Positions 25,431 to 39,377 of a stretch of DNA of 64,000 bases are shown piece after piece; position 1 is the stretch's first letter; every line of letters starts with the position of its first letter. The notes under the pieces are model-generated. The model did not search any database, was not told the origin of the DNA, and saw only the letters and a program-made list of their open reading frames with translations. This DNA comes from a virus, in IMG/VR virus record IMGVR_UViG_3300042340_000194, positions 1-64,000 of that record; one strand, written 5' to 3'. A program made the translations under genes and the position numbers.

Positions 25431-26345
25431 TCAGGGTTTGTCCATCGCCATGACGGATCGGGGGAAGTAGATGGCCACACCACCGTGGCGGGCGTGGGCG
25501 GGAACGGTATATTCCAGGCCCTGGAGTTGAGGAGGGAAAAACTCCAGTGGCTGGGGGAGGTGCATCTCCAGCTTGTCCGGGTTACGCTCATAGGTCATGA
25601 TCCGGTCTTTAGACAAGAACCCGCCGGATTTAGAGGCAGTAAGCTCATTGATGGGTTCAATGTCCTTAATAACCTCGTTGGTATCGAGGAAAAACTCCAT
25701 GACAGTGGTGTCCGAAGCCGTCCCGAGCTTCATTGTGGAGATCTTTCGGAACACATTGTACGGAACCAACATGGTGTCTGGTTGTTCTTTCATGTTGCTG
25801 TTCTCGACGATCCGGGTTACCGGTTCATTGAGGAGTTCGAGAACTTCATCGGCGGTGATGCCGGACGTGTCGAACCACTTATCAGGTACGATCTTGTCGA
25901 GTTGATCGGAGTTGAAGAAGCCGCGAAGGCCGGCAGCAGGATCTCCGAAGTAGGAAATGCGCTGCATAGTTTCTTCATAGACGCGACGCACAGCGTTAGC
26001 GCGGCGTTGCTCCAGGTTTGTGTTGGGGACTTCAGCCGCAGCTCGCAGCTCCTGGACGGTGTAGCCAAAGCTGGAACCGTAGGATTCAACCTTGTGGGTT
26101 ACTTCCTTACGGAACACATCAGCGCGGGGGAGATCCTTTGCCTTATCGGCAATTCGCCGCATGGAGCCTTGTTGGTCGTAGATCCTATATGTGTAGGAAT
26201 CCTTCCCATTAGACACCTCGCTGTTAATGGGGAGTACACTAGCGTATTTGATGTCGGCATACTCGACTTCAAAAGCCCTAGTGATGATATGCTCAAGTTC
26301 CCTCGCGAGGAAGAAACCGTGGTTGTCGAGGCGTTGGTTGGACAT
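25431..26345 (-). CDS. major capsid protein (DUF2184-like)
   Basis: This 304-residue protein matches the DUF2184 type of HK97-fold capsid proteins. Features are an N-terminal helix (FLARELEHIITRAFEVEYAD), the DSYTYRIYDQQGSMRRIAD segment (about 49-67), a long spine-like helix (TNLEQRRANAVRRVYEETMQ, about 108-127) and a closing VPAHARHGGVAIYFPRSV strand. No separate scaffold gene is obvious. Cement and DUF2213 genes lie upstream, as in related phages. A segment of it (ITADEVLELLNEPVTRIVEN) recurs in a plus-strand gene at 30273-30614. Confidence 0.87.
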   Translation of the reverse strand: MSNQRLDNHGFFLARELEHIITRAFEVEYADIKYASVLPINSEVSNGKDSYTYRIYDQQGSMRRIADKAKDLPRADVFRKEVTHKVESYGSSFGYTVQELRAAAEVPNTNLEQRRANAVRRVYEETMQRISYFGDPAAGLRGFFNSDQLDKIVPDKWFDTSGITADEVLELLNEPVTRIVENSNMKEQPDTMLVPYNVFRKISTMKLGTASDTTVMEFFLDTNEVIKDIEPINELTASKSGGFLSKDRIMTYERNPDKLEMHLPQPLEFFPPQLQGLEYTVPAHARHGGVAIYFPRSVMAMDKP

Positions 26346-27089: not shown

Positions 27090-28400
27090 TCATCGCCTCT
27101 TAGAAGCAGTCAGCGGTTTCTGCCAACTATTGTTGGTTTTTTGCTTGTAGCTATCGGAGGATGCTGCAGCATCGCGCCGTTGAACCCCGCGAAGGGCCGT
27201 GCGCAGCTTGCCGGTGGAATCGGCAGCATCGGTTCGGGGAGCTGGTTCGGCCTCGGGGGGATCTTCGGCATCAAGCGTGGCCAGGGCCCCCTCAACCCGG
27301 CCCCTCATTTGGGCGACTTCCATCTCCTCATCTGGGGCCTCACCGAAGATGTTTTCGTATGCTTGGACATACAACTCATCGGCCTCGATGCCGTCGAAGA
27401 CGAAATCGTCTTCAAAGGCGGGTGCGAGGAGTTGAAGAGTGTCGAGGCGGGCGGCTACTAGGGTGTCCAACCGGGAGGCTGGGATTTGAGCGAGAACCGC
27501 GTCGATGTTGTCTTCATCGAGGTGAATCTCACTGGGTTCCCCGGCATCAATCGTGGCCTGGAGCCCATCGGCCCGCCCTTCGGCGATCTCCTTCTCAGCC
27601 TCCAGGTCGGAAAAATCACTCTGCAGGGTATTTAGCTTTTCCTGCAGAGTGGAATTAGCAGTGCGCAGTTCAGTAAGGGCCTTGCTGGAATCCCTCACAT
27701 AGGCTTGCACCAGCGGAGCATATTCAGAGGCAACCTCAACATCGACTCCATCGAGATTGATACGGGCCATAACGGGGTTCGCGGGGGGTACGGGCTCGGG
27801 GGAATCGAGGAGTGCTTGATCAAAAGATACCGCTGCCGTAGAATCCATTCGATCTAACAGCAACCTGACTTCTGGGCCAGCACGTCCTTTAGGGACAATG
27901 GCGATGTGGTTGACGCGGATATTGCGTTGGACACCGTCATAGGACTCGCCTGATGGTGTTTGACCGGGGGTAGGGTCATAATCGACTCGGTAGCCGGCGG
28001 ATACTTCTACAGCGTGATCGGGAGAATCTTTACGTTGGATGTTGTCGATGGATTTTTGGTCAGTGACAAGAAGCGCGACTTCAACAAAACCGTCGCTGAA
28101 GTGGACATGCGAGCCGGCATGCCCGATTTGATACATCTTTGTATTATCCGCATCAAGGAGCTGCGGAGGATGACGCCAAGTAACTGGCTTCATCCCGAAG
28201 GATGCTAGGGTTTCTGGCTTTCCTACTTCCTCTTCCGGGCGGTACTCAGTTTCGACCCTGCCGTCAGCGCGGCGATATTTCTGGAGGCCAGTGCGGGCGG
28301 TGCGGGCCCGGACCTGGAGGTATCCCGACTCCGGGTCGATCTTGCAGCCGACGATAGGCAGCGAGAGGAAGTCGTATCGGGTAGCTGTTGCTAGGCTCAT
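27090..28400 (-). CDS. DUF2213 prohead protein (putative maturation protease/scaffold)
   Basis: This 436-residue protein has a DUF2213-like domain in residues 1-190 (ATRYDFLSLPIVGC, then VTWRHPPQLLDADN, HAVEVSAGYRVDYDPTPG and HIAIVPKGRAGPEVRLL). DUF2213 is regarded as a likely prohead protease. The C-terminal half is acidic and coiled-coil, resembling a fused scaffold (LTELRTANSTLQEKLNTLQ onward). Position upstream of cement and capsid genes fits this. If it is a protease, it is the natural candidate to trim proteins packaged in the head. Confidence 0.78.
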   Translation of the reverse strand: MSLATATRYDFLSLPIVGCKIDPESGYLQVRARTARTGLQKYRRADGRVETEYRPEEEVGKPETLASFGMKPVTWRHPPQLLDADNTKMYQIGHAGSHVHFSDGFVEVALLVTDQKSIDNIQRKDSPDHAVEVSAGYRVDYDPTPGQTPSGESYDGVQRNIRVNHIAIVPKGRAGPEVRLLLDRMDSTAAVSFDQALLDSPEPVPPANPVMARINLDGVDVEVASEYAPLVQAYVRDSSKALTELRTANSTLQEKLNTLQSDFSDLEAEKEIAEGRADGLQATIDAGEPSEIHLDEDNIDAVLAQIPASRLDTLVAARLDTLQLLAPAFEDDFVFDGIEADELYVQAYENIFGEAPDEEMEVAQMRGRVEGALATLDAEDPPEAEPAPRTDAADSTGKLRTALRGVQRRDAAASSDSYKQKTNNSWQKPLTASKRR

Positions 28401-28436: not shown

Positions 28437-29486
28437 CTAGTAGCTTTTTAACAAAGCGGTCTCTAAACTTCTGTAATAACCTTTTACAACTTTGTCTACG
28501 TGATCGGTTTCATAAGTGCGCAGCGCGTTTTCTAGAGGATCCCATTGAGGAGCCCAACGCCTTTCAAATGTTTCTACTGCGTATTCTGATAAACCTACGC
28601 GGCGTGGTACTTGAGTAAGCTCGTTGATGAAATCGCGGGCGCTAGTTCGATTTTCTGTAGCGAACTCAGCTAGGCCGAAGTCGATGAATTTAAGGCTTCT
28701 GGTTTTTGGGTTAAACATTATGTTTTTTAAGTGCCCATCGTTGTGTACGAGACCACTAATGTGTAAAGAGCGATAGAGGTCTAACATTTGGCGTTTTAAC
28801 TGTAGTGGTGCGGTGTATTTAAGCGAGAAAATACTAGAACTTACCCCATGCGTAGATAAAGGGGAATAATTGTTCAAGTGCTCCATGACCAATACCCGGT
28901 CAGTAGCTTTGTATAGCTGAGGGGATGGCACATTATTGATGTTAGCGTGCCTTAGTATCTCACCTTCAGGGAGTAAGCTTTCTGTGGGGCCGCTCAGGAA
29001 TTTATTAGGTGTCCCCCCGAGGTCGTTGTTCTTTAAGTATTTTATACCGTATTTATTAGACGGGTGGACAACATAATTACCGTAAGCACCTTGGCCCCCT
29101 AGACATCGTGGAGTCGGAACAAAGTCATCTTCTCTAATCCAGTGATCAATCTTGGATGCTGCACATGCAATTGCGTTGGCTTTCTTGTTATCTTCAAAGA
29201 CATCCCACTGTTTGCCGCGCTTCCGCGCCTCAGCTTCGATCCGATCCCAGTCCTCACCAGGGGCGGTGAATCCCTTCCAATCGGGGTCGCGGCGAACGAA
29301 ACGGCGGGCGGCGGAGATGCCTAGGGCTGCGATCCCGGCCCCAAGGGCGACTTTGCCGATCAGGCTCGGGGTGATTGTTGGATTAGAACTGGGCGCAGTG
29401 GTCTTTTTGGAGCATTTCTTGTTGTCTGGTATGCCTGACGCACCGCATTTTTTGTCGAATCTTAGTGAAGCGGTGGTTATGGGCAT
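28437..29486 (-). CDS. kinase-like protein with Cys motif and hydrophobic segment
   Basis: This 349-residue protein has three parts. The short N terminus carries the shared Cys motif (R9-x-DKKCGASGIPDNKKC, C14 and C25). A hydrophobic Gly/Ala segment follows (about 40-62) and ends in Arg residues. The rest is a protein-kinase-like fold: a Gly-rich loop GGQGAYGNYVV with Lys in GIKYLK, a helix-C type Glu (EGEILRHA), the catalytic loop HNDGHLKN and the metal-binding DFG. All key kinase residues are present. It is the first gene of the effector-like cluster and is divergent from the plus-strand island. Substrate unknown. Confidence 0.82.
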   Translation of the reverse strand: MPITTASLRFDKKCGASGIPDNKKCSKKTTAPSSNPTITPSLIGKVALGAGIAALGISAARRFVRRDPDWKGFTAPGEDWDRIEAEARKRGKQWDVFEDNKKANAIACAASKIDHWIREDDFVPTPRCLGGQGAYGNYVVHPSNKYGIKYLKNNDLGGTPNKFLSGPTESLLPEGEILRHANINNVPSPQLYKATDRVLVMEHLNNYSPLSTHGVSSSIFSLKYTAPLQLKRQMLDLYRSLHISGLVHNDGHLKNIMFNPKTRSLKFIDFGLAEFATENRTSARDFINELTQVPRRVGLSEYAVETFERRWAPQWDPLENALRTYETDHVDKVVKGYYRSLETALLKSY

Positions 29487-29549
29487 GATTACCGGTGGTA
29501 TGTATGCTATTCTAGCGAGGCACCTGCGTGGACACTTGTCTTGGGTTTT

Positions 29550-30014
29550 ATGGATAGAGAGACTCTGGTCAAGCTAAATGGCGATGTGGCGCAGTTAAAA
29601 GGTATTATGCAGCCTTTTAATGATGCTGCCGCTCAGGCCAATAAAGGTTTTATTGAGCTTGGGCGTACTCTGAACTTAGAGGCCCAACGGCGCAATGCCA
29701 TCTTGCGAGCATTGTTTTATTCATCGGTCAAGGCCGCATCACCTACTATTGGGCGTAAACGTCGCGCCCGCAGGGCTAGGGGAAGGCGGCTAGAGGTCAA
29801 GGCAGGAAATAAAACCAATAACGAGTTTCAGTCATACGACAGTGTCTGTCCTCCGATTAGTTCAAACCATATTGCGATCAGCGAAGATGGCGAACTCAGT
29901 TTTGTTTACCGTGCTCATATTGAGCACACATCAGGAGTGACTCCTGATGGGTCAGAATATAAGGCCATTGTAAGATCAATAAAACCAATCAGTGCTAGGA
30001 TTAAGGCGTTATGA
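29550..30014 (+). CDS. plus-strand island protein with basic TIGRKRR module
   Basis: The ATG at 29550 (MDRETLVK) gives 154 residues. The N-terminal 60 residues are helical. Residues about 65-80 form a strongly basic patch (SPTIGRKRRARRARGRRL) that recurs almost unchanged in the protein at 30273. The C-terminal half is beta-like, with SEDGELSFVYRAHIEHTSG. No family is recognised, but the basic patch could bind nucleic acid. It opens a plus-strand block of four coupled genes, opposite to its surroundings. Confidence 0.6.
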   Translation: MDRETLVKLNGDVAQLKGIMQPFNDAAAQANKGFIELGRTLNLEAQRRNAILRALFYSSVKAASPTIGRKRRARRARGRRLEVKAGNKTNNEFQSYDSVCPPISSNHIAISEDGELSFVYRAHIEHTSGVTPDGSEYKAIVRSIKPISARIKAL

Positions 30015-30280
30015 TATCCCCACTCCTCATGATAGACTTTGTAACCGTACAAACCACTGTAGCATTTGAGTTGTACATGGACGAACCCGCTGGTGGGTCT
30101 AGCCTAGAGGATCTAAATACTAGGATCTTAGTATTTAGAGAGAAGCTTATCGAGATTTATGGTTGCAATCCTGCAATTCTACGTGTAGTGGAACACCCTT
30201 TCTGGATACTTAATCCAGTGGCGGATCAGCCATTTAATCTAGTTAAACCACGCTCTTATTTTTCAAACTGCCATGTTTAA
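30011..30280 (+). CDS. small hypothetical protein
   Basis: This 89-residue protein is coupled to the gene before it by an ATGA overlap and overlaps the next start by eight bases. It has an alpha/beta look (TVAFELYMDEPAGG, then LNTRILVFREKLIEIYG). No family is recognised. Its place between two genes that share the basic module suggests one transcript of four genes. Confidence 0.55.
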   Translation: MISPLLMIDFVTVQTTVAFELYMDEPAGGSSLEDLNTRILVFREKLIEIYGCNPAILRVVEHPFWILNPVADQPFNLVKPRSYFSNCHV

Positions 30281-30614
30281 GGACGACCTAGGGATAAACA
30301 TACAAAATGCTGCTTGCAGTACTACAGGCATGACTGCTGATGAAATGCTTGAACTACTAAATGAGCCGGTTACGCGCATCGTAGAGAACTTTAACATGAG
30401 GGAGAAACTGGACACTATATTGCTCGATTCTAAGCAGTTTGCGTCTATATTATCTGAACGCACCAAGGCGGCAATGAATCGCGTCTATCACAATACGAGA
30501 CCTAACTATCTACCTATCTTTGTTAACGCCTCCCCCACTATTGGACGTAAACGCCGCAACCGTCGCGCTCGGGGGCGTAAACTAGCAGCTAATCGCCAAA
30601 AAGCTTGTGCTTAA
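30273..30614 (+). CDS. chimera of a capsid-protein fragment and the basic TIGRKRR module
   Basis: This 113-residue protein has residues 18-52 clearly related to the phage's own major capsid protein: TTGMTADEMLELLNEPVTRI here against TSGITADEVLELLNEPVTRI there, continuing through VEN-x-NM and DT. The corresponding DNA has diverged, so this is not a very recent copy. Residues about 85-103 are the basic SPTIGRKRRNRRARGRKL module shared with the 29550 gene. It overlaps the Dcd start by eight bases. It could be a capsid-assembly modulator, an RNA- or DNA-binding capsid ligand, or a decaying recombination product. Confidence 0.62.
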   Translation: MFKDDLGINIQNAACSTTGMTADEMLELLNEPVTRIVENFNMREKLDTILLDSKQFASILSERTKAAMNRVYHNTRPNYLPIFVNASPTIGRKRRNRRARGRKLAANRQKACA

Positions 30615-31212
30615 GAACGACATCTGGATAGGACAGCAAGCTGCCGCTGGGATGATCGAGCCCTATCAGGAATGTCTGTTGCGCCGCATTGAAACCTGGG
30701 AGGATAGCATTCTACAAGTAAAGCCGGTGTTGTCTTTTGGTGTTAGCAGTTATGGCTATGACATCCGGCTGTCGGCTCAGGAATTTATGACCTTCCGCCA
30801 TGTCCCTGGCACGGTGATGAACCCCAAGCGGGCCAATCCCGCCAACCTGGAGCCGGCCCCTCTCCATCAGGACGAGGATGGGCGCTACTTCATCCTGCCG
30901 GCGCATACCTACGGCCTCGGGGTAGCTCTGGAGAAATTGCGGGTGCCGCCGAATATCACTGTGATCTGCTTGGGGAAAAGCACTTACGCCCGGTTGGGGA
31001 TCATTGTGAATACCACGCCGGCAGAAGCGGCATGGGAGGGGCACCTAACCCTGGAGTTCAGTAATTCTTCTGGTGCTGATTGCCGTATTTATGCCGAAGA
31101 GGGTATCTGCCAACTGCTTTTCTTTGAGGGGGATCCCTGTGAAACTACTTATGCGGATCGGAATGGTAAATATCAATATCAGCCGGAACTGGTGACATTA
31201 GCAAGGGTTTGA
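30607..31212 (+). CDS. dcd: dCTP deaminase
   Basis: This 201-residue protein is close to the usual Dcd length. It would deaminate dCTP to dUTP, feeding dUMP to thymidylate synthesis. Motifs include SFGVSSYGYDIRLS near residue 43, the conserved GKSTYARLGIIVNTTPAEAAWEG block with the catalytic Glu region (about 123-145) and the closing YQ. It starts at GTG 30607 and overlaps the preceding gene. It is the only recognisable enzyme of the plus-strand island and complements ThyX (49527-50291) and MazG. Confidence 0.92.
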   Translation: MLKNDIWIGQQAAAGMIEPYQECLLRRIETWEDSILQVKPVLSFGVSSYGYDIRLSAQEFMTFRHVPGTVMNPKRANPANLEPAPLHQDEDGRYFILPAHTYGLGVALEKLRVPPNITVICLGKSTYARLGIIVNTTPAEAAWEGHLTLEFSNSSGADCRIYAEEGICQLLFFEGDPCETTYADRNGKYQYQPELVTLARV

Positions 31213-31242
31213 TTCTTACTTTATTGTGAAACATAATTAAGG

Positions 31243-32133
31243 CTATCGCAGCCGATTTCCCACACGTCTTGTCAGGCGGGGCGCATTACCTAAGTACCTA
31301 TCCCAGAACTTGTTGTAGGCTTGCTGTGTGGGAGCGTTTTTAGTAAGCCCGGTCTCCTTGATCAGATCAGAGAATTTCCTATGTTCTATAGGATCTAGTT
31401 TATTCAGCATGTAGTTAATGTGGTCCATATCATTGCGTAGACCTGAAGTAGGCATGAATTTGATCGGCTTGGCGTAGCCCCAGTCGATCAATTTAACATC
31501 GCCATCCTTGACCATAACATTACCCAGGTGCATGTCTCCATGTGCGTACCCGGCCTTATGCAGCTTCGACATCTCTAAGACAAACTGCTTCGCGTAGCGG
31601 GCCTTCTCCTGCTTGGTTCCGCTTTCTACGATTTTGGTTAAGTTCTTGTACCCGTCCATGTACTCGATTTGAGTTATAGATCGCGCCGAATCGACAGCTA
31701 GGACATTCGGAGTGTTGATGCCCTTATCGTGTAGTTTGGCCTGCAGCGTGACTTCACGCAGGAACTGTCGCCGCCCGACAAGGGTTTTCTTGAAGTTTGT
31801 CTTGAAGACTGATTTACGATCCGGGGAGACGTGAATGGCCCCGGCATAACCTTTGGCTAGGAACTTACTACCTTTGGGGAGATTTTGCGGAGTTGATAAT
31901 GCAATAGCTTCCTTGAAGGCACGTTCAATTGCAGGAGTCCATCTTCTCCTGTTGAGCACTCCTACAAGAACGACTCCTGTAGCTACGGCTGCGGTGGTTG
32001 TTCTCGGGGTTATGATACCTCCTGAGCTGCTTGCAGGGGCTACGCTTTTTCCACACTTCTTGTTCGCTGCAATGCCGGATTTCCCGCACTTCTTATCCAG
32101 GCGCAGCCGCGCTGCGGTCAGTTGCAATTCCAT
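31243..32133 (-). CDS. second kinase-like protein with Cys motif
   Basis: This 296-residue protein is built like the 349-residue kinase. It has a short leader, the Cys motif (R11-x-DKKCGKSGIAANKKC, C16 and C27), a hydrophobic stretch (about 42-58, TTAAVATGVVLVGVL) ending in RRR, then a kinase/phosphotransferase domain. Domain motifs are a GYAGAIHVSPDRKSVFKT loop and Lys, Glu in FLREVTLQAKLH, the catalytic AHGDMHLGN and IDWG in place of DFG. Key residues are present. The domain is only distantly similar to the first kinase, so the leader is shared more closely than the enzyme. Convergent with dcd, 30 bases apart. Confidence 0.8.
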   Translation of the reverse strand: MELQLTAARLRLDKKCGKSGIAANKKCGKSVAPASSSGGIITPRTTTAAVATGVVLVGVLNRRRWTPAIERAFKEAIALSTPQNLPKGSKFLAKGYAGAIHVSPDRKSVFKTNFKKTLVGRRQFLREVTLQAKLHDKGINTPNVLAVDSARSITQIEYMDGYKNLTKIVESGTKQEKARYAKQFVLEMSKLHKAGYAHGDMHLGNVMVKDGDVKLIDWGYAKPIKFMPTSGLRNDMDHINYMLNKLDPIEHRKFSDLIKETGLTKNAPTQQAYNKFWDRYLGNAPRLTRRVGNRLR

Positions 32134-32444
32134 TTCCGTAACGACTTATTGATCCGTGAATCCTGGTTATTAGCGGTTTTCGCGCTGGTTAGCTTACGCT
32201 TCATTCCCGACATGCGGGCACAGAACCTCCGTCGTCTTTCTGCTCTCGCTGATCCGGGTTTGAGCTTGGAGGGGTCGGTCGTTACCGCGAGGGAGAGCTT
32301 CGAGCCTGGATGTTGCTTGCGGTAGGAGGCGATGCCTGCGGCGTTAAGGCCGCCCTCGGGGTTTTTGCCTTCCTTGCGCTGCCAAGCGGGGGATTTGTCA
32401 AGGCGGATGGTTAGAGGTGTGAGTAGTCCCACCTCAGTTACCAC
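32118..32444 (-). CDS. DUF6321-like basic protein
   Basis: This 108-residue protein matches a small phage family by pattern: SPAWQRKEGKNPEGGLNAAG, PSKLKPGSARAERRRRFCAR, then MSGMKRKLTSAKTANN with DSRINKSLRKW. It is strongly basic and probably binds nucleic acid or a virion component; function is not established. The start is GTG 32444. Before the domain it has LTIRLDK, like the R-x-DK leaders of its neighbours. It overlaps both neighbouring genes. Confidence 0.78.
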   Translation of the reverse strand: MVTEVGLLTPLTIRLDKSPAWQRKEGKNPEGGLNAAGIASYRKQHPGSKLSLAVTTDPSKLKPGSARAERRRRFCARMSGMKRKLTSAKTANNQDSRINKSLRKWNCN

Positions 32445-33270
32445 TAAAGAGCCTGCGCTTCTGCCTAATCAGCCCGATTTGGGTTTTACGCGCAGCGCGG
32501 CGTGTTGAAGCAACCCCAGCTTGGGCTTTAGCCATTGTTGTAGATACTGCAGCTTTTGTCGCCTTCCGTACTCTCGCTTTAGATGGAGGTATAGCGCCTT
32601 GAGACAACATCCCCCGAGCTTGTTTGTTATTCATAGACCGTGCCATACTGGCTTGTGAGTTGCTAACTTGATTTGTCCATGGGTCTGGAATGCCACCAGC
32701 GGAATTGGTAGGGCGAGGATTGGACATGCGGCTAGTCACACGTAAGTTTTTCGCAACTCTTAGGTTAGACATAGCATTTTTCTGCATTCCTCGATATTTC
32801 ATAGCACCCACTGTACCTGCAGCAATACTACCAGCAACGGCGGCTACTTTAAGGCCGGTCTGGACGTTTTCATTACCAAGGGAGGATTTTACAGTACCGA
32901 CTAAGCCTTTAGTACACTTTTTGCCTTCAGCAATGCCGGAAGCACCGCACTTCTTGTCCTCTCTTACACTCAACACACCACGGATATAATTCTTACTGTG
33001 TTTATTGATTCCAAGTTCACAAGCATCAAGATATTCCATAGGAGTAAGTACAGCGTCCATTGCTGCTTTAGCTGCGCAGCCACAAGAGCCACTCTTCTTA
33101 CCCTTCTTCATGCAAGCGGCACAAGGCTTCTTACCTTTCCCGTGGGGGGCATCACCGTACTCGGGGGACTCTCCCTCCTCCATCTTCGAAGACTCCATTC
33201 CTTTCCCCGCAGCGCTGCCCTCGGCGGCCTTTTTACGACCCTTTTTAAGGAATGCTGCGGGGATCGGCAT
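32434..33270 (-). CDS. Cys-rich, basic virion-type protein with shared motif
   Basis: This 278-residue protein starts with a Lys/Glu/Gly-rich segment and a Cys cluster (CAACMKKGKKSGSCGC, about 49-64). Residues about 103-121 carry the shared motif (REDKKCGASGIAEGKKC, C108 and C119). A hydrophobic Gly/Ala segment (about 136-155) and a long basic C-terminal region follow (ARVRKATKAAVSTTMAKAQA onward). No enzyme domain is seen, so this may be a structural or DNA-condensing member of the set. Confidence 0.7.
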   Translation of the reverse strand: MPIPAAFLKKGRKKAAEGSAAGKGMESSKMEEGESPEYGDAPHGKGKKPCAACMKKGKKSGSCGCAAKAAMDAVLTPMEYLDACELGINKHSKNYIRGVLSVREDKKCGASGIAEGKKCTKGLVGTVKSSLGNENVQTGLKVAAVAGSIAAGTVGAMKYRGMQKNAMSNLRVAKNLRVTSRMSNPRPTNSAGGIPDPWTNQVSNSQASMARSMNNKQARGMLSQGAIPPSKARVRKATKAAVSTTMAKAQAGVASTRRAARKTQIGLIRQKRRLFSGN

Positions 33271-33302
33271 GGCCTGGGTAGATAGGGATTCTCCCCCTCA
33301 GG

Positions 33303-33881
33303 TTACCGTTGAGGCACAGCCGGCAAGATTCTATGCACCCAGGCCCTCTTTAGGTTGTAATCAGGTCGGCGATCGTACCATTGAGCAGCGTCCCAAACAC
33401 TCACGCTGGGCATGCACGCAGCATAGATGGTTTTATCGGAATAAAACCCGTCGTAGAATGTGGACTTGGGGTTGTTATAGGTCCAGCTAGGGCCGTCGAA
33501 CTCCGACCAAGGATCTTTGACATTGAAGGCATAAGTGGCGTCCGCTTTCAGTTTCACACCATCGAGAGCAATAACATGCCCAGATCCGGTGAAATAGCCG
33601 TGAGTGATGAGAAACTCACCAGCTTTTAGATAACCAACAATGTCATTGAGCGAAGCGGTGTTGTTGTAGATATACCGGTCACCGATATAACCACGAATTA
33701 CTTTGCCCATGTTGGTAGTATCCCCCGCCGCACCAGGCAGGCGGTTCAATTTACGACGAACACCTAGCACGTCTTTATCACCTACCGCCATCGCAATGCA
33801 GGCGGACTGACATGTAGAAGCGTCAGGCTGGGAGAGGTTGAGTGCGTGGACTGTTGTTTTCCACTCTTGACTGATGATCAT
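33303..33881 (-). CDS. C39-like cysteine peptidase
   Basis: This 192-residue protein has the triad layout of papain-like C39_2 peptidases. The nucleophile Cys lies in DASTCQSACIAMAVG (C24 or C28), followed by the usual helix. The His lies in GSGHVIALDG (around residue 102) and the Asp in FNVKDPWS. Such domains cleave peptide bonds, often after Gly-Gly, or peptidoglycan bridges. It is adjacent to a small two-span membrane protein, so a lysis role is possible. Its place among Cys-motif proteins also allows a virion effector role. Confidence 0.74.
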   Translation of the reverse strand: MIISQEWKTTVHALNLSQPDASTCQSACIAMAVGDKDVLGVRRKLNRLPGAAGDTTNMGKVIRGYIGDRYIYNNTASLNDIVGYLKAGEFLITHGYFTGSGHVIALDGVKLKADATYAFNVKDPWSEFDGPSWTYNNPKSTFYDGFYSDKTIYAACMPSVSVWDAAQWYDRRPDYNLKRAWVHRILPAVPQR

Positions 33882-33929
33882 GACGATAATTAAGGATAAA
33901 GAGAGAAAAAGGGAGAGGTGGATGTGTGA

Positions 33930-34181
33930 TTAAGTGACCTCGTCCTCCTCACGAGGTTTGCGAAGAGCTGGGTTATATGTATTAAAACCATTCACGAAGC
34001 CAGCCTTCTCAGCCATACTTTTCATAAAAGGAACTCCCATAATAGAGCCACTGACAATCCAACAGCTAGGCCACCCACCAGGCAGGGTGGGGGAATGTTC
34101 GCAACGGATTAGAAAACCTACGCCGAATATAACTGTGGCTACGACAGGAACAGTCAACACCTTTGGCCAGCGTATTTGCAT
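33930..34181 (-). CDS. small membrane protein, holin candidate
   Basis: The ATG at 34181 (MQIRWPKVL) gives 83 residues. Two hydrophobic segments, VLTVPVVATVIFGVGFLI (about 8-25) and a Gly/Pro-rich one around SCWIVSGSIMGVPFM (about 38-52), are followed by a charged tail ending KPREEDEVT. Size and topology suit a class II-like holin. It precedes the C39-like peptidase gene in transcription order. No other holin-lysin pair is obvious. Confidence 0.55.
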   Translation of the reverse strand: MQIRWPKVLTVPVVATVIFGVGFLIRCEHSPTLPGGWPSCWIVSGSIMGVPFMKSMAEKAGFVNGFNTYNPALRKPREEDEVT

Positions 34182-34200
34182 TTTGATTGGGTGTGGCACT

Positions 34201-37200
34201 TTAGTTAGAGGAAGTGGCGGGCTCGGGGGGAACTGTCTTAGCTCCGGTGGCATTCTGCTGTACTTCAGCTCGCAGGGATTTACTACTACGCTTTACCTTG
34301 TTAGGATCGTAACCTCCGTACCATACATCAATCATACGATCTTCAATTTCTGAGCGTAGTTGAAGTAGTGCTTGCTGCTTATTTGTGCTAAGAGCTTTGA
34401 TATACCGACTTTTAACATCTCTACTTTTATTACCAAATAAAACTTGTAGATCACCCTCTATTGGTTTATCGCTGGCTATACGCCATACCATTTCATTAGT
34501 CAACTCCTTTGAGCGGGCACGGTCCACTGTTAAATAACTGTGTGCCTCTTTCTGTAACTGCTTATCTAATAAATAACTATCACCAGCCTTAAAGTATTTT
34601 CTCCAGTTAGCCCCAAACTCTGGGTTATTAGGATCAATTTTTTCGCTAAGTCCATGAGGAATATTATTATTCTGTAACATGCGCACCGGACTGCTAGCGA
34701 ACGCACGTTTACCCATAGTTGCGTAAAACACATCTCCTTTGCTGACCCATGTTCGCATATTCTCATCTGTATGATTAAACACCCCGAAAGTGGGGCCTGC
34801 TACATTAACAACTTTGACATCTCTATAACCCATTTCGGCTAGAATAGCTAATGTTTCCGACGCCACATTTCCCCCATTGCTGTAGGCTAGCATGTGGACA
34901 GGCTTGCCGGTTAACCGCCGTTGTGCTGCGACAAAAGCTGCTGCACGTACTGCATCAGGATTAAACCCACGAGTTTCTATATTACCTCGCAAATAATCCA
35001 TCTGCTTAAACGCATTCTTCATCTCTATACCCATAGTAACCGGCTTCTGAGCTACTTTAGGGAGCATACCTATGCGGGCTTTCCGCGTCTTCATGTCTAG
35101 ATCGTCGGCACCTTGCTTAATAGGTTGGGAGATTTTGTTAGCAAAAGGGAGTATATCATGCTCGCCCCAGATCTCCCGAAAAGCTCCACCTTCAGCCATC
35201 AAATGACTACCTTGACCACGCTTAGTAAAAGTACCATCGTCTGCATAAGAAAGCATGACCACTGCGCCTTTGCTATTCTGTGTTTGCCCGTAAAATGCTG
35301 GGGTATTGTCCATACCACTAAACCCAGTATCATATCCTTTATCTTTGAAGTTGTAAGTAGATGCTTCAAACGGAGTAACGTCTTTGACATCCTTACCTAA
35401 ACGCTTCGCCGCTTTTTCGTTAAACTCGCGCACCATATCCTTAGCCATAGCCTCGGCGTCTATAGCAGATCTGGACACATTTCTCCTATAGGCGAATACC
35501 TGCTGAGATTTCACCCCGAGTGCGAGCCCTACGGCTGTGGCAGCCACTGCTCCAGCACCGATAGCCACATTACGGAGAGTATTGTCCTTATCTTTTGGGA
35601 TTGCTGCAGATTGCCCACCTCCGCCAGAAGCGGCTTGAGCGGCCAATGTTTTCTTAGAGCAGTTCCTATTATCAGGAATACCGGATTTACCGCAGCGCTT
35701 GTCCTGCCTAATAGTCGCAGCGAAAGCCTGGAAATAAGCATCACCGCGCTCGGGGGGCTTTCTTGCTTCCATGCGGCGGCGCTGGATTACTACGCGGGCA
35801 GCCGCCTCCGCTGACTTCTGGTTTTTATATAAAGGCTTGCCATTAGGCAATGTCCTATCCATTAGGGCTTTAAGCACGTCTAGATAAGACTGCTGCTCCT
35901 CTACATTAGTAAATTTGAAACTCTCCCTAGCCCGTCGAGGACGGTTCATCGGAGGTATCGGCGGAATAGCTCTACCGGTACGTGTGTTTAGCTCATTAGG
36001 GGGTCTTATTTGAAGCCCTTCGAATGCACCGGTCCCCCTGAGTATTGTCAAAGCTTCGGAAGGGTCTTTGATCGGCCTACCTGCGTGCTCTGAGGCAGCC
36101 TTTTGGATAGTCAGGCTCGGGGCAGACCATATCGTATTGACACTGGCGGGAAAGCCATTAGTTTGGAAATAATGCTGGTTAACTAGATCCGCAGAGTATG
36201 GGCCTTTAACCGCCTGCCTACCTGCTGTAGGGTAGAGCCGCGTAGCAAAGAACTCCGCATGCCCCTGCATCGCGTTCTGCATTACTGGGTATTGGTCTAG
36301 AGGTACGGATTTCCTTAAGCCTGTTGGCCCATAGACTTTAGGTAAAGAGTTAATAATAGACTCGTAGAAAGTATCATAGCTTGAGATTGTCTTACCATAG
36401 ATAGTTCTTGCTGTGCCAATTGCTCGGAAATTGGGGTGCAGCGTACCTAGGAGCTGGCTACGGGCTTGTTCTCTGGCTGCTGGGGTTAGCTGTTGAGCAT
36501 CGAGCAGCGTGTTAGCTAAGCTATGGCGATCTTCTAATTTACCTAGGTTAAAGCCCCGGTCTTTCGCGTAATTAGTCAACGTTTTATGCTCAGCATCCAA
36601 TTGATCTGCGATCTGCTGCACCAGCTTCACGCCTGACACTTCAGCCCCGCCAGTCACCTTGTAATGAGTTCTGAGGAAATCCTCCCCCGAGAGCGTCGCG
36701 AATTGATAACCGTCACCGACTCTATAGATTTGCTGCTCTTTCAAGCGTGGCGTGCTCCACATCGCTTTGTATGAGGCTTTATGCCACTCACCAAAGTCTG
36801 TGTAGGCGCTAGGACTTACATTTTTAACCCGCTGGCCGACAGCCGAAAATGGGGAATAGTCTAAAGGACTGGTTTTAAGAATATCAGAAGTATCGGGTAA
36901 TCCGTAGTTTCTACCAGCTACTGCTCCTACGCCATTGCGACGGCGCACTAATTCAGCGACAGCATTACGAGCTTCAGTTTTGGTACGCGCACGCGCCGGA
37001 TGTAGATCTAGCACCGAATGCAGTGCATTACTTACACTGTCATCAATGTTTTTACCAATACCTTCCCTGTAGCTGCGGATATTGCTTAAGATGCCGTGGG
37101 CACGAACTCCTCCCCCGAGTACGGCAAGAGCTACACCGATGCCTATAGACCCTTGAACTAGAGCAGCTTGTAGTTCTTTTTTCTTCTTAAGATCTTGAGG

Positions 37201-37515
37201 GGATGCTTTAACAGCACCGCGAATGACGGCTTTTCTACCGCCTTCTAATTCTGAGAAGTTACCAGTAGTTATGCCTTTTCTAAGGCGACCGAGCCCTCTT
37301 TGTGTGCTGGCGAGTGCAGCTAATGGATCACTACCTCTTCCCGCAGCTTTTAAATGTCCATCACCGCCTTCCCCCTTTAGCCGGCAATCCCATTCAGGAG
37401 GAATGCAGCGAGATCCACAACGCCGATTAGGCGGCTTACACGCAATGGTGTTTCGAGTCTTAGCGTCGATCCTCGATTGAGTAATCAGGAAAGTAGCCGT
37501 ACGAATGTTGGTCAT
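34201..37515 (-). CDS. two-module virion-type protein with lipase-like domain
   Basis: This 1104-residue protein contains two successive cassettes. Module one starts with a Cys motif (ACKPPNRRCGSRCIPPEWDC, about 26-45), then a hydrophobic stretch (about 117-140) and an unrecognised domain to about 590. Module two starts with IRQDKRCGKSGIPDNRNC (C608 and C619), a hydrophobic segment (about 645-668), then a lipase-like alpha/beta-hydrolase. Its nucleophile elbow is LAYSNGGNVAS (Ser-Asn-Gly-Gly, around residue 885), with a possible catalytic Asp in SKGD and a His downstream. The gene lies directly after the portal, where head-morphogenesis proteins usually sit, but I cannot recognise a MuF domain. 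It starts at ATG 37515, overlapping the portal stop. Confidence 0.72.
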   Translation of the reverse strand: MTNIRTATFLITQSRIDAKTRNTIACKPPNRRCGSRCIPPEWDCRLKGEGGDGHLKAAGRGSDPLAALASTQRGLGRLRKGITTGNFSELEGGRKAVIRGAVKASPQDLKKKKELQAALVQGSIGIGVALAVLGGGVRAHGILSNIRSYREGIGKNIDDSVSNALHSVLDLHPARARTKTEARNAVAELVRRRNGVGAVAGRNYGLPDTSDILKTSPLDYSPFSAVGQRVKNVSPSAYTDFGEWHKASYKAMWSTPRLKEQQIYRVGDGYQFATLSGEDFLRTHYKVTGGAEVSGVKLVQQIADQLDAEHKTLTNYAKDRGFNLGKLEDRHSLANTLLDAQQLTPAAREQARSQLLGTLHPNFRAIGTARTIYGKTISSYDTFYESIINSLPKVYGPTGLRKSVPLDQYPVMQNAMQGHAEFFATRLYPTAGRQAVKGPYSADLVNQHYFQTNGFPASVNTIWSAPSLTIQKAASEHAGRPIKDPSEALTILRGTGAFEGLQIRPPNELNTRTGRAIPPIPPMNRPRRARESFKFTNVEEQQSYLDVLKALMDRTLPNGKPLYKNQKSAEAAARVVIQRRRMEARKPPERGDAYFQAFAATIRQDKRCGKSGIPDNRNCSKKTLAAQAASGGGGQSAAIPKDKDNTLRNVAIGAGAVAATAVGLALGVKSQQVFAYRRNVSRSAIDAEAMAKDMVREFNEKAAKRLGKDVKDVTPFEASTYNFKDKGYDTGFSGMDNTPAFYGQTQNSKGAVVMLSYADDGTFTKRGQGSHLMAEGGAFREIWGEHDILPFANKISQPIKQGADDLDMKTRKARIGMLPKVAQKPVTMGIEMKNAFKQMDYLRGNIETRGFNPDAVRAAAFVAAQRRLTGKPVHMLAYSNGGNVASETLAILAEMGYRDVKVVNVAGPTFGVFNHTDENMRTWVSKGDVFYATMGKRAFASSPVRMLQNNNIPHGLSEKIDPNNPEFGANWRKYFKAGDSYLLDKQLQKEAHSYLTVDRARSKELTNEMVWRIASDKPIEGDLQVLFGNKSRDVKSRYIKALSTNKQQALLQLRSEIEDRMIDVWYGGYDPNKVKRSSKSLRAEVQQNATGAKTVPPEPATSSN

Positions 37516-39377
37516 TTAACGTCCTCGGGGGCGGGCTTGAGCGTGAAGATCGTCTGCTCGGGTAGAAAAGCCGCTAAGCCTTTCCTAGCAGCCCGGAGCG
37601 AGGCATAGCCAGTAACCTGCGGGCCAGGGAGGATCGCCCCATCGAGCTTAATGGTGGAGTTGAGCAGGGCATAGCGCCGGGATCGGCTGGGCCCGAGCAA
37701 CACCAGGCCGCCAATATCCGGGCCTGTTGCGTCGTTCCGGGTAGTGGTCCCCACCGGATAGCCCAGGCTGGCGCCGTCTTGATGCTTGATCACGTCGATG
37801 GTCAAGCCCAGAGCCTCGTAGCTGTCGGTCTTGGGCGCGGGCTTCGCCGGTTGAGACTCTTGAGACGCAGGTTGAGACTGGCCAGGGACCTCGCCGCCCT
37901 CGGGGGGAATCGGCTGGCCGTCTGGTCCTAAACCCTGCGCCTGGAATGCTTGTGCTTGTAACTGATTCATATTGTTCTCAAACATGCTATCCTCTTGCAT
38001 TTGTAGCTGGGCAGATACGTTCTCGTCCAGCACAGTCTCAATACTGTATTCCGCTGAGCCGTAGCGATTATTTCTAATTTCTATAGGACTTAGCACTCTT
38101 AATGCTGCATAAATATTGTCTATTTCAGCTCTGGACTTCTGTACAGCGAGCTTCTCCGTGGCGGTCTCAACGAACACCGAGGGGAACGAAATTTCCCACG
38201 ATTCTGGTGGGGTGCCCCGCATGGGACTGTCCTTGGCCCGCATGAAAAGCTCAAAAATATCGGAAATAGGGTCTTGGCAATAGACAGTCTGCCAGTCCTC
38301 TACTAGAGAGGCCCATACTCGCTCTTCAAACCGCCCTTCTTTCCCGAGGCCGCCAGGACTGGTGCCCATTAGAATTGACGCAGGCCAACCAGTAGTAGCC
38401 TGCATGTACTCAGCAAAAGGTGCGGTGGCTTGCGCCATGTTACTGAGGGATCTTTCAGCAAAGCCTATCTCTTCATTCGCGTCTATTAAGAATCCTCCAT
38501 AGGAGGATCTAGACATGTTGTTTATTTCCATGCGTTTCATCACCTGATTAGCGTTACCGGCTCTCACCATCTCCATTAACCCTGGCACTTTATGCCAAAA
38601 CAAAGAAGAGTCTGTAACACTAGAAGATAATCCTCTAATGGACGTTTCATACAGTTTCCATGAATCCCATACTACTTGTAATGGTGCTTGGCCCCAGCCT
38701 TGTTGTTGTTGGCGCTGTCGCCAGGGTAGGTACAGTCCATCAAAGCGGCTAACTCTAGTGTGATGGATACGCATATTTGTTACAGGGCTTTTCTGGTTCT
38801 CGTCTAATTTTTGATTAGTAGTAATTCTGTACATCTCGGGTTTGGAGTAGTCCATAACGGACACGTCCATGGGAAATATTTCGTGGCGTGATAACGCACA
38901 CAGCCCACGAATACCACGAATGCGGTCGTAGTTTACAGGTGTTTCCGGGTCTTCGTTGCCATCATCAACTAGAGCGACAATGACCGATCCGCCGTAGAGG
39001 CGTTGAAGGCGGACAGCTTCGGCATACACCCGGTGGAATTTCAACTGTTTAAGGTAGGCTTCAAAATCTGTGATCTGGTCAATCTCTTGGGAAGCTTTCC
39101 GGCCTCCTAGTTTAATTGTGACACGATGTTTGAGAACTTCATCGGCAATAGAATCGACAAAACGCCGGGGTAGTCCTACGGAGTAAAGAGCTTCGAGTTC
39201 TGGATGAGAGAGTAGATAGCTAGTCCGTATGCTTGTTGATTGGCTTCGGTCTTTACCTGCTATTCCCATGCCTGTAAAGGCATTGACTAAAGCTCCATCT
39301 GTACGCATGCCATCAGCATCGCTACGATTGCCGATAGCGACGGAATTATCGGGAGCTTCGGGAGATACTGATTTCAA
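37512..39377 (-). CDS. portal protein with C-terminal extension
   Basis: This 621-residue protein matches DUF1073-type portals: PELEALYSVGLPRRFVDSIA (about 58-77), VRLQRLYGGSVIVALVDDG (about 122-140), HHTRVSRFDGLYLPWRQR, and TGWPASILMGTSPGGLGKEG followed by an E-R helix. It forms the dodecameric DNA gate. A Gln/Pro-rich linker (about 470-525) leads to an unrecognised domain of about 95 residues with TRNDATGPDIGGLVLLGPSR. The longest frame starts at TTG 39377; ATG 39308 (MRTDGALVNAF) is a credible alternative. The order small terminase, large terminase, portal is standard. Confidence 0.9.
   Translation of the reverse strand: MKSVSPEAPDNSVAIGNRSDADGMRTDGALVNAFTGMGIAGKDRSQSTSIRTSYLLSHPELEALYSVGLPRRFVDSIADEVLKHRVTIKLGGRKASQEIDQITDFEAYLKQLKFHRVYAEAVRLQRLYGGSVIVALVDDGNEDPETPVNYDRIRGIRGLCALSRHEIFPMDVSVMDYSKPEMYRITTNQKLDENQKSPVTNMRIHHTRVSRFDGLYLPWRQRQQQQGWGQAPLQVVWDSWKLYETSIRGLSSSVTDSSLFWHKVPGLMEMVRAGNANQVMKRMEINNMSRSSYGGFLIDANEEIGFAERSLSNMAQATAPFAEYMQATTGWPASILMGTSPGGLGKEGRFEERVWASLVEDWQTVYCQDPISDIFELFMRAKDSPMRGTPPESWEISFPSVFVETATEKLAVQKSRAEIDNIYAALRVLSPIEIRNNRYGSAEYSIETVLDENVSAQLQMQEDSMFENNMNQLQAQAFQAQGLGPDGQPIPPEGGEVPGQSQPASQESQPAKPAPKTDSYEALGLTIDVIKHQDGASLGYPVGTTTRNDATGPDIGGLVLLGPSRSRRYALLNSTIKLDGAILPGPQVTGYASLRAARKGLAAFLPEQTIFTLKPAPEDVK

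Follow-up and report, generated by a model that had tools for sequence, protein, structure and literature searches.

The internal proteins of phage T4 (IPI-III and Alt) carry capsid-targeting sequences that are cut by gp21 after L/I-x-E; they are packed in the prohead core, ejected into the host, and include an ADP-ribosyltransferase (PMC9026906). In SPN3US and phiKZ, gp245/gp175 cut N-terminal propeptides of several head proteins after A-x-E, with Ser as the preferred P1' residue (PMC10052503). MuF polymorphic toxins of temperate phages are encoded by a portal-adjacent gene with a conserved front and a swappable rear, including proteases and ADP-ribosyltransferases (PMC5576092), while the polyvalent proteins of phages and conjugative elements are multi-domain early effectors, among them kinases and GNATs, which lie among virion genes and are predicted to be injected (PMC5512222). 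Here we analysed a stretch of 64,000 nucleotides (the window), part of the 75.6-kb virus record IMGVR_UViG_3300042340_000194 of IMG/VR. In its head gene block, unrelated protein modules are preceded by a common header, composed of an R-x-D leader, a small Cys loop (the cassette) and a hydrophobic segment. We consider it likely, from comparison of sequences, that this header targets effectors to the capsid and marks them for processing, and that these effectors are ejected and possibly inserted into membranes. By analogy, the header would be functionally nearest to the T4 capsid-targeted internal proteins and to MuF and polyvalent effectors; by sequence it is a member of none of these groups.

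An initial annotation of the window had pointed out five copies of a Cys motif in four proteins, with C-x10-C spacing and CG-x3-I[P/A]. We located all five, on the minus strand, and each of them keeps both features. A profile drawn largely from other phages recovered those five copies only in the whole 75.6-kb record (E 3e-10 to 5e-12). An R-x-DK leader had been described for four copies and for the DUF6321 protein. The leader is real, but it is better written R-x-D and treated as a separate element, and the fifth copy, in the first module of the 1104-residue protein, has it too (RID). Hence all five copies and the DUF6321 protein carry it. The claim that a hydrophobic stretch follows each copy also held, although the stretch is weak behind kinase 2 (Kyte-Doolittle value over 19 residues of 1.29, against 1.40-2.06 for the other window segments). 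Pfam scans bore out both kinase domains (PF00069, 32.7 and 40.7 bits, cut-off 31.7) and the DUF6321 assignment, and hhalign against alpha/beta-hydrolase modules agreed with the lipase-like module (96.6%, E 6e-10). The Cys motif and the leader are separable, as shown by the DUF6321 protein, which has R-x-D but no loop. It is therefore the leader that probably acts as the processing signal, and not the Cys motif. The elements of the window are the following.

34201..37515, minus strand: 1104-residue protein, with a cassette, a mostly helical conserved module, a second cassette and an alpha/beta-hydrolase (lipase-like) module
37465..37473, minus strand: R-x-D leader RID, first cassette of the 1104-residue protein, residues 15-17
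37384..37419, minus strand: 4-Cys cassette CKPPNRRCGSRCIPPEWDC, C2-C4 core, first module of the 1104-residue protein, residues 33-44
37117..37173, minus strand: Ala/Gly-rich hydrophobic segment LQAALVQGSIGIGVALAVL, after the first cassette of the 1104-residue protein
35701..35709, minus strand: R-x-D leader RQD, second cassette of the 1104-residue protein
35659..35694, minus strand: 2-Cys cassette CGKSGIPDNRNC, preceding the lipase-like module, residues 608-619 of the 1104-residue protein
35512..35568, minus strand: hydrophobic segment VAIGAGAVAATAVGLALGV, after the second cassette of the 1104-residue protein
32434..33270, minus strand: basic protein, with an internal cassette and a basic tail
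32956-32964, minus strand: R-x-D (RED) of the basic protein
32914..32949, minus strand: 2-Cys cassette CGASGIAEGKKC of the basic protein, residues 108-119
32118..32444, minus strand: DUF6321 protein (Pfam), with the header LTPxTIRLD and no Cys loop
32397-32405, minus strand: R-x-D of the DUF6321 protein
31243..32133, minus strand: kinase 2 (Pfam), cassette at the N-terminus
32095-32103, minus strand: R-x-D (RLD) of kinase 2
32053..32088, minus strand: 2-Cys cassette CGKSGIAANKKC of kinase 2, residues 16-27
28437..29486, minus strand: kinase 1 (Pfam), cassette at the N-terminus
29454-29462, minus strand: R-x-D (RFD) of kinase 1
29412..29447, minus strand: 2-Cys cassette CGASGIPDNKKC of kinase 1, residues 14-25
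29307..29363, minus strand: hydrophobic segment LIGKVALGAGIAALGISAA of kinase 1, followed by RRFVRR

Further loci were gathered from IMG/VR by portal and motif alignment searches and reduced to 119 non-redundant ones. A 29-column matrix with a threshold of 20 bits called 465 cassettes in 333 proteins from 116 of these loci. The same matrix and threshold called none in reversed or shuffled open reading frames (ORFs), and a chance origin of the motif is thus excluded. In this metagenomic set, a locus contains up to nine cassettes and a protein up to four; 222 cassettes are found within 60 residues of the N-terminus, the other 243 being internal. As in the T4 internal proteins, a short common element stands on unrelated proteins, here with a putative P3-x-P1 acidic motif. 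However, the header is unrelated to the T4 element in sequence (no matching family in Pfam and PHROGs scans), its motif has Asp, with Arg at the putative P3 position, half of its copies are internal, and several may occur per chain. Moreover, its Cys loop and hydrophobic segment would remain on the product.

The location of the header is exclusive. In the 46 loci with both genes, 238 of 238 cassettes are found between the portal and the DUF2213 protease, and in 14 long phage records all cassettes fall in a single block of about 3-9 kb, with none elsewhere. The minus-strand head block of the window runs from TerL through the portal, the 1104-residue protein, a 107-residue ORF, a C39-like protein, the basic protein, the DUF6321 protein, kinase 2, kinase 1, the DUF2213 protease and a small head protein to the major capsid protein. 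Its structural members that matter here are as follows.

37512..39377, minus strand: portal protein (Phage_portal_3; Pfam and PHROGs scans)
27090..28400, minus strand: DUF2213 prohead protease/scaffold (PF09979, phrog_530)
25431..26345, minus strand: major capsid protein, called by position and by similarity to the S-CBS4 major capsid protein
26325-26333, minus strand: R-x-D (RLD) near the N-terminus of the major capsid protein, residues 5-7

Two isolated cyanophages have the header. In CL131 it is carried by gp044, gp047 and gp048 (ATW59312, ATW59315 and ATW59316), the last with several headers (more than the four per chain seen in the metagenomic set) and lipase-type modules. A virion analysis of CL131 by LC-MS/MS, with 23 proteins, has been published (PMC6293099). 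PaV-LD has five header proteins, two of which bear the annotation names "virion structural protein" and "minor virion protein". A tblastn search with the cassette consensus found CL131 only, PaV-LD being detected by profile, while tblastn with the 1104-residue protein gave no match, and neither did a megablast search of 50,697 phage records with the block. Among 386 cyanobacterial genomes, one metagenome-assembled genome (MAG) contains the cassette, on contigs that look phage-derived; a bacterial origin of the cassette was considered and rejected on this basis. The contig of this Thermosynechococcus MAG (L219-L222) has a 908-residue open frame with four cassettes and a DnaJ-like stretch read by eye. 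The hosts of the metagenomic phages are presumably cyanobacteria, judging from the nearest portals (S-CBS4, CL131) and from the MAG. In S-CBS4, R-x-D sites are present in DUF2213 and capsid but without Cys cassette, and its portal-to-protease block encodes a glycosyltransferase and a methyltransferase in place of cassette proteins. No header was found in Mic1 by pattern search, nor any R-x-D clustering in the three Mic1 proteins examined; the Mic1 virion proteome includes both genes after the portal.

Further information came from the distribution of R-x-D. It stands within 25 residues upstream of C2, the first Cys of the loop, in 95% of 400 distinct cassettes, against 20.6% in shuffled sequences. 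Per 1000 residues of cassette protein, there are 47 occurrences in leaders and 1.2 in the stretch of 100 residues behind the cassette; the density elsewhere is 3.7. The window's protease gene belongs to DUF2213 (PF09979, E 7e-44; phrog_530, E 3e-69), and DUF2213 proteins are themselves rich in the motif, with 20.6 R-x-D per 1000 residues (6.8 in shuffled sequences) and 11.9 R-x-D-[AS] (1.0 in shuffled sequences). These sites occupy conserved positions, the protease-scaffold junction among them, and an unbiased scan of this part of the protein returned R-x-D as the top-enriched one-gap pair. The DUF2213 protein of the window has ten such sites, at residues 8, 44, 123, 138, 184, 276, 310, 318, 389 and 408. 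The capsid protein has R-x-D at residue 5 in all 46 cases, and the portal has it close to residue 25 and again in its C-terminal tail, each in 73 of 76; the window portal keeps the former, at residue 25, but its tail reads K-T-D. TerL and one tail protein are depleted in the motif. Its recurrence in other head proteins and depletion in unrelated ones is what would be expected of a prohead-protease site.

In the cyanophages S-CBS4, CL131 and PaV-LD, R-x-D occurs at the capsid N-terminus as well as in DUF2213. In CL131 these proteins are gp040, where the capsid site reads RMD, and gp038, respectively; PaV-LD ORF071R contains 15 against 4.0 expected, a number matched by none of 2000 shuffles. Other DUF2213 proteins, those of Pam3, RHph_TM3_3_3 and phiEt88, showed no comparable enrichment. 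R-x-D followed by Ala or Ser has the same format as the T4 and SPN3US sites, since those are cut after L/I-x-E and A-x-E; SPN3US and phiKZ differ from the phages described here in being giant myoviruses, with a different motif and no Cys header. A search of the open-access literature gave no useful paper on DUF2213 cleavage, with no specificity reported; neither the header nor R-x-D as a protease site was found described there. The proposal of the initial annotation is borne out in part: a sorting or processing header common to unrelated effector domains, with DUF2213 as its likely processor, is strongly supported by comparison, through the block location, the R-x-D common to DUF2213, capsid and portal, and the modules described below.

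These data bear on two other explanations. Cassette proteins could be made late and never packaged, staying in the infected cell as membrane-anchored proteins for host control, lysis or superinfection exclusion. The hydrophobic segment after the header would suit such a role, and kinases and lipases could work in the producing cell. However, neither a fixed place in the head gene block nor a leader common to scaffold, capsid and portal would be expected, and the leader would be left without a role. We regard this explanation as unlikely. Alternatively, the cassette could mainly dock packaged proteins to an internal core of the head or portal, as in podovirus core and ejection proteins, R-x-D being merely tolerated. 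In this regard, the first module of the 1104-residue protein is conserved in 94 loci, consists almost entirely of helices and is invariably encoded after the portal, and the cassette is kept in non-enzymatic proteins such as the basic protein, whose N-terminal part recurs in 75 loci. A docking role does not account for R-x-D lying just before nearly every cassette and being depleted behind it, and the fold of the module matched no known ejection or MuF protein, so that we find docking as the main function rather improbable. Fold searches with the first module found no known relative. MuF homology was specifically rejected (hhalign probability 0.4%, no Pfam or PHROGs MuF match).

The loop itself reads CG-x3-I-x5-C, with optional extra Cys at -7 and +4 from C2. 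In 403 distinct cassettes, both extra Cys are present in 83 and neither in 317, while C1 is displaced by one residue in the other 3; the two are therefore co-present or co-absent in 400 of 403. Paired gain and loss is the pattern expected of disulphides, and we infer C1-C3 and C2-C4 bonds. The four-Cys form heads the gene after the portal in about 94 loci. Such copies could hold zinc, and the cassette proteins are basic, which would fit a metal-binding motif for nucleic acid or protein binding. Nevertheless, in a Cys4 metal site the four Cys would be conserved together, and 317 of the 403 distinct copies have two only, the other two having been lost jointly, as for disulphides. In addition, none of the known zinc modules matched the cassette by structure or by family, and a PDB search with it gave no match. 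Zinc binding thus seems very improbable to us.

A hydrophobic segment follows 75% of cassettes within 100 residues; the background is 17% for other ORFs and, within cassette proteins, 0.8% of the remaining positions. Its composition is 33% Ala and 19% Gly.

Behind the header, 98 module clusters were distinguished. Their names are family matches and denote putative enzymes by sequence: Pfam matches comprise protein kinases, LRAT/NlpC-P60, the ADP-ribosyltransferase exoenzyme family, DnaJ, ATLF/M3-like zincins, lipases, DUF5872 and DUF6321. The commonest unassigned module has a weak fold match to GNAT acetyltransferases (KacT, AtaT and others, best E 0.02) and might tentatively be called GNAT-like. 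By the initial annotation's own criterion, a profile search that placed the motif in a single ordinary enzyme family would have refuted its reading; the search was run and returned many module types instead. That the motif belongs to just one such family, or that the resemblance arose by chance, is already contradicted by these 98 clusters, by the kinase, hydrolase, LRAT, ADP-ribosyltransferase, DnaJ and zincin matches and by the zero null hits, and the probability of such an explanation is negligible.

The modules are also exchanged. Fourteen module families exist both as stand-alone genes and within longer chains. Among loci whose portals are about 97% identical to that of the window, L014, L007 and L010 have a first module merely 26% identical to the window's, and L005 is without kinase 2 and encodes an additional cassette protein; kinase 1 is still 96-98% identical in L005 and L014. 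Different modules at such portal identity indicate fast, modular swapping. DUF6321 (PF19846) was present in 3 of 16 records tested; it shares the gene block and the LTPxTIRLD header and has no Cys loop of its own, and in locus L015 the domain is fused behind a cassette. No papers on DUF6321 were found in an open-access search. The C-terminal domain of the A10 family (for instance L189:5920-6660), CARSFGDMK...LSRAKWKCSGK, resembles the end of DUF6321 (CARMSGMK...LRKWNC), and both possibly belong to one superfamily.

Swappable C-terminal effector domains are also met in the MuF toxins. The header proteins differ from these in that the front module is not MuF, that many headers replace one N-terminal domain, and that there are no prophage or bacterial copies beyond one MAG. 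In comparison with polyvalent proteins, a repeated header separates the domains here, and the text of PMC5512222 mentions neither cysteine nor cyanophage.

According to the capsid-targeting and processing reading, the portal-protease block would encode head cargo, that is, proteins acting on the host. Each cargo module would be headed by an R-x-D site, a small Cys loop, a linker and a basic-flanked, Ala/Gly-rich segment of membrane type. During prohead assembly, cargo would be incorporated into the core alongside the DUF2213 scaffold/protease. The protease would then cleave its own chain, the capsid protein and the portal ends after R-x-D, and likewise cut upstream of the cargo headers, splitting multi-module chains into individual effectors. 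These would remain in the head with the DNA and exit via the portal at infection. Once outside the cytoplasm, the Cys loop would be oxidised, and loop and hydrophobic segment might assist insertion into, or passage across, the host membrane, after which the enzyme domains would act on the host.

Four observations weigh against this scheme. In CL131, it is the interval from the capsid gene to the tape measure gene that contains the cassette genes, and not the portal-protease interval. The residue after R-x-D is mostly A, S or T in DUF2213, but cassette leaders have L, A, K or F there, a difference that leaves some leaders possibly uncut. Two conserved R-x-D (RFDGLYLP and RADVLRKE) fall within the portal and capsid core, in regions that are probably folded protein, and the motif alone is thus insufficient to define a cleavage site. 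Finally, the hydrophobic segments are only moderately hydrophobic and have basic residues on both sides; being Ala/Gly-rich as well, they leave the membrane topology uncertain.

Some further observations are the following. The C39-like cysteine peptidase-like protein (33303-33881, minus strand) has no cassette, relatives in 6 loci only, and a weak Pfam match (E 0.02). A plus-strand dCTP deaminase gene (PHROG 1663, 30607-31212) sits inside the minus-strand block. Next to it, the plus-strand ORF 30273-30614 contains a fragment (TADEMLELLNEPVTRIVENFNMREKLDT) similar to the major capsid protein of the window, from which it probably arose by partial duplication and decay, and has a SPTIGRKRRxRRARGR stretch in common with ORF 29541-30014. 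A second recurrent short element, (D)xCWEGYxQxGxKxKGxxxVPNCVP, was seen in several cassette proteins (L121, L105, L218, L219).

In summary, our results describe a header that stands before exchangeable modules in the head gene block of these phages. Our judgement is evenly balanced on whether it is an undescribed, portable cyanophage delivery header, such that any protein behind it would be packed into the head, released by the scaffold protease from multi-effector chains and taken into or across the host membrane. If so, each phage would hold a swappable set of several injected effectors, and the header would provide a sequence handle for such effectors in uncultured cyanophages, many of them unannotated. 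It would also predict an R-x-D cleavage specificity for one branch of DUF2213 proteases, and suggest a natural, reusable protein-delivery tag.
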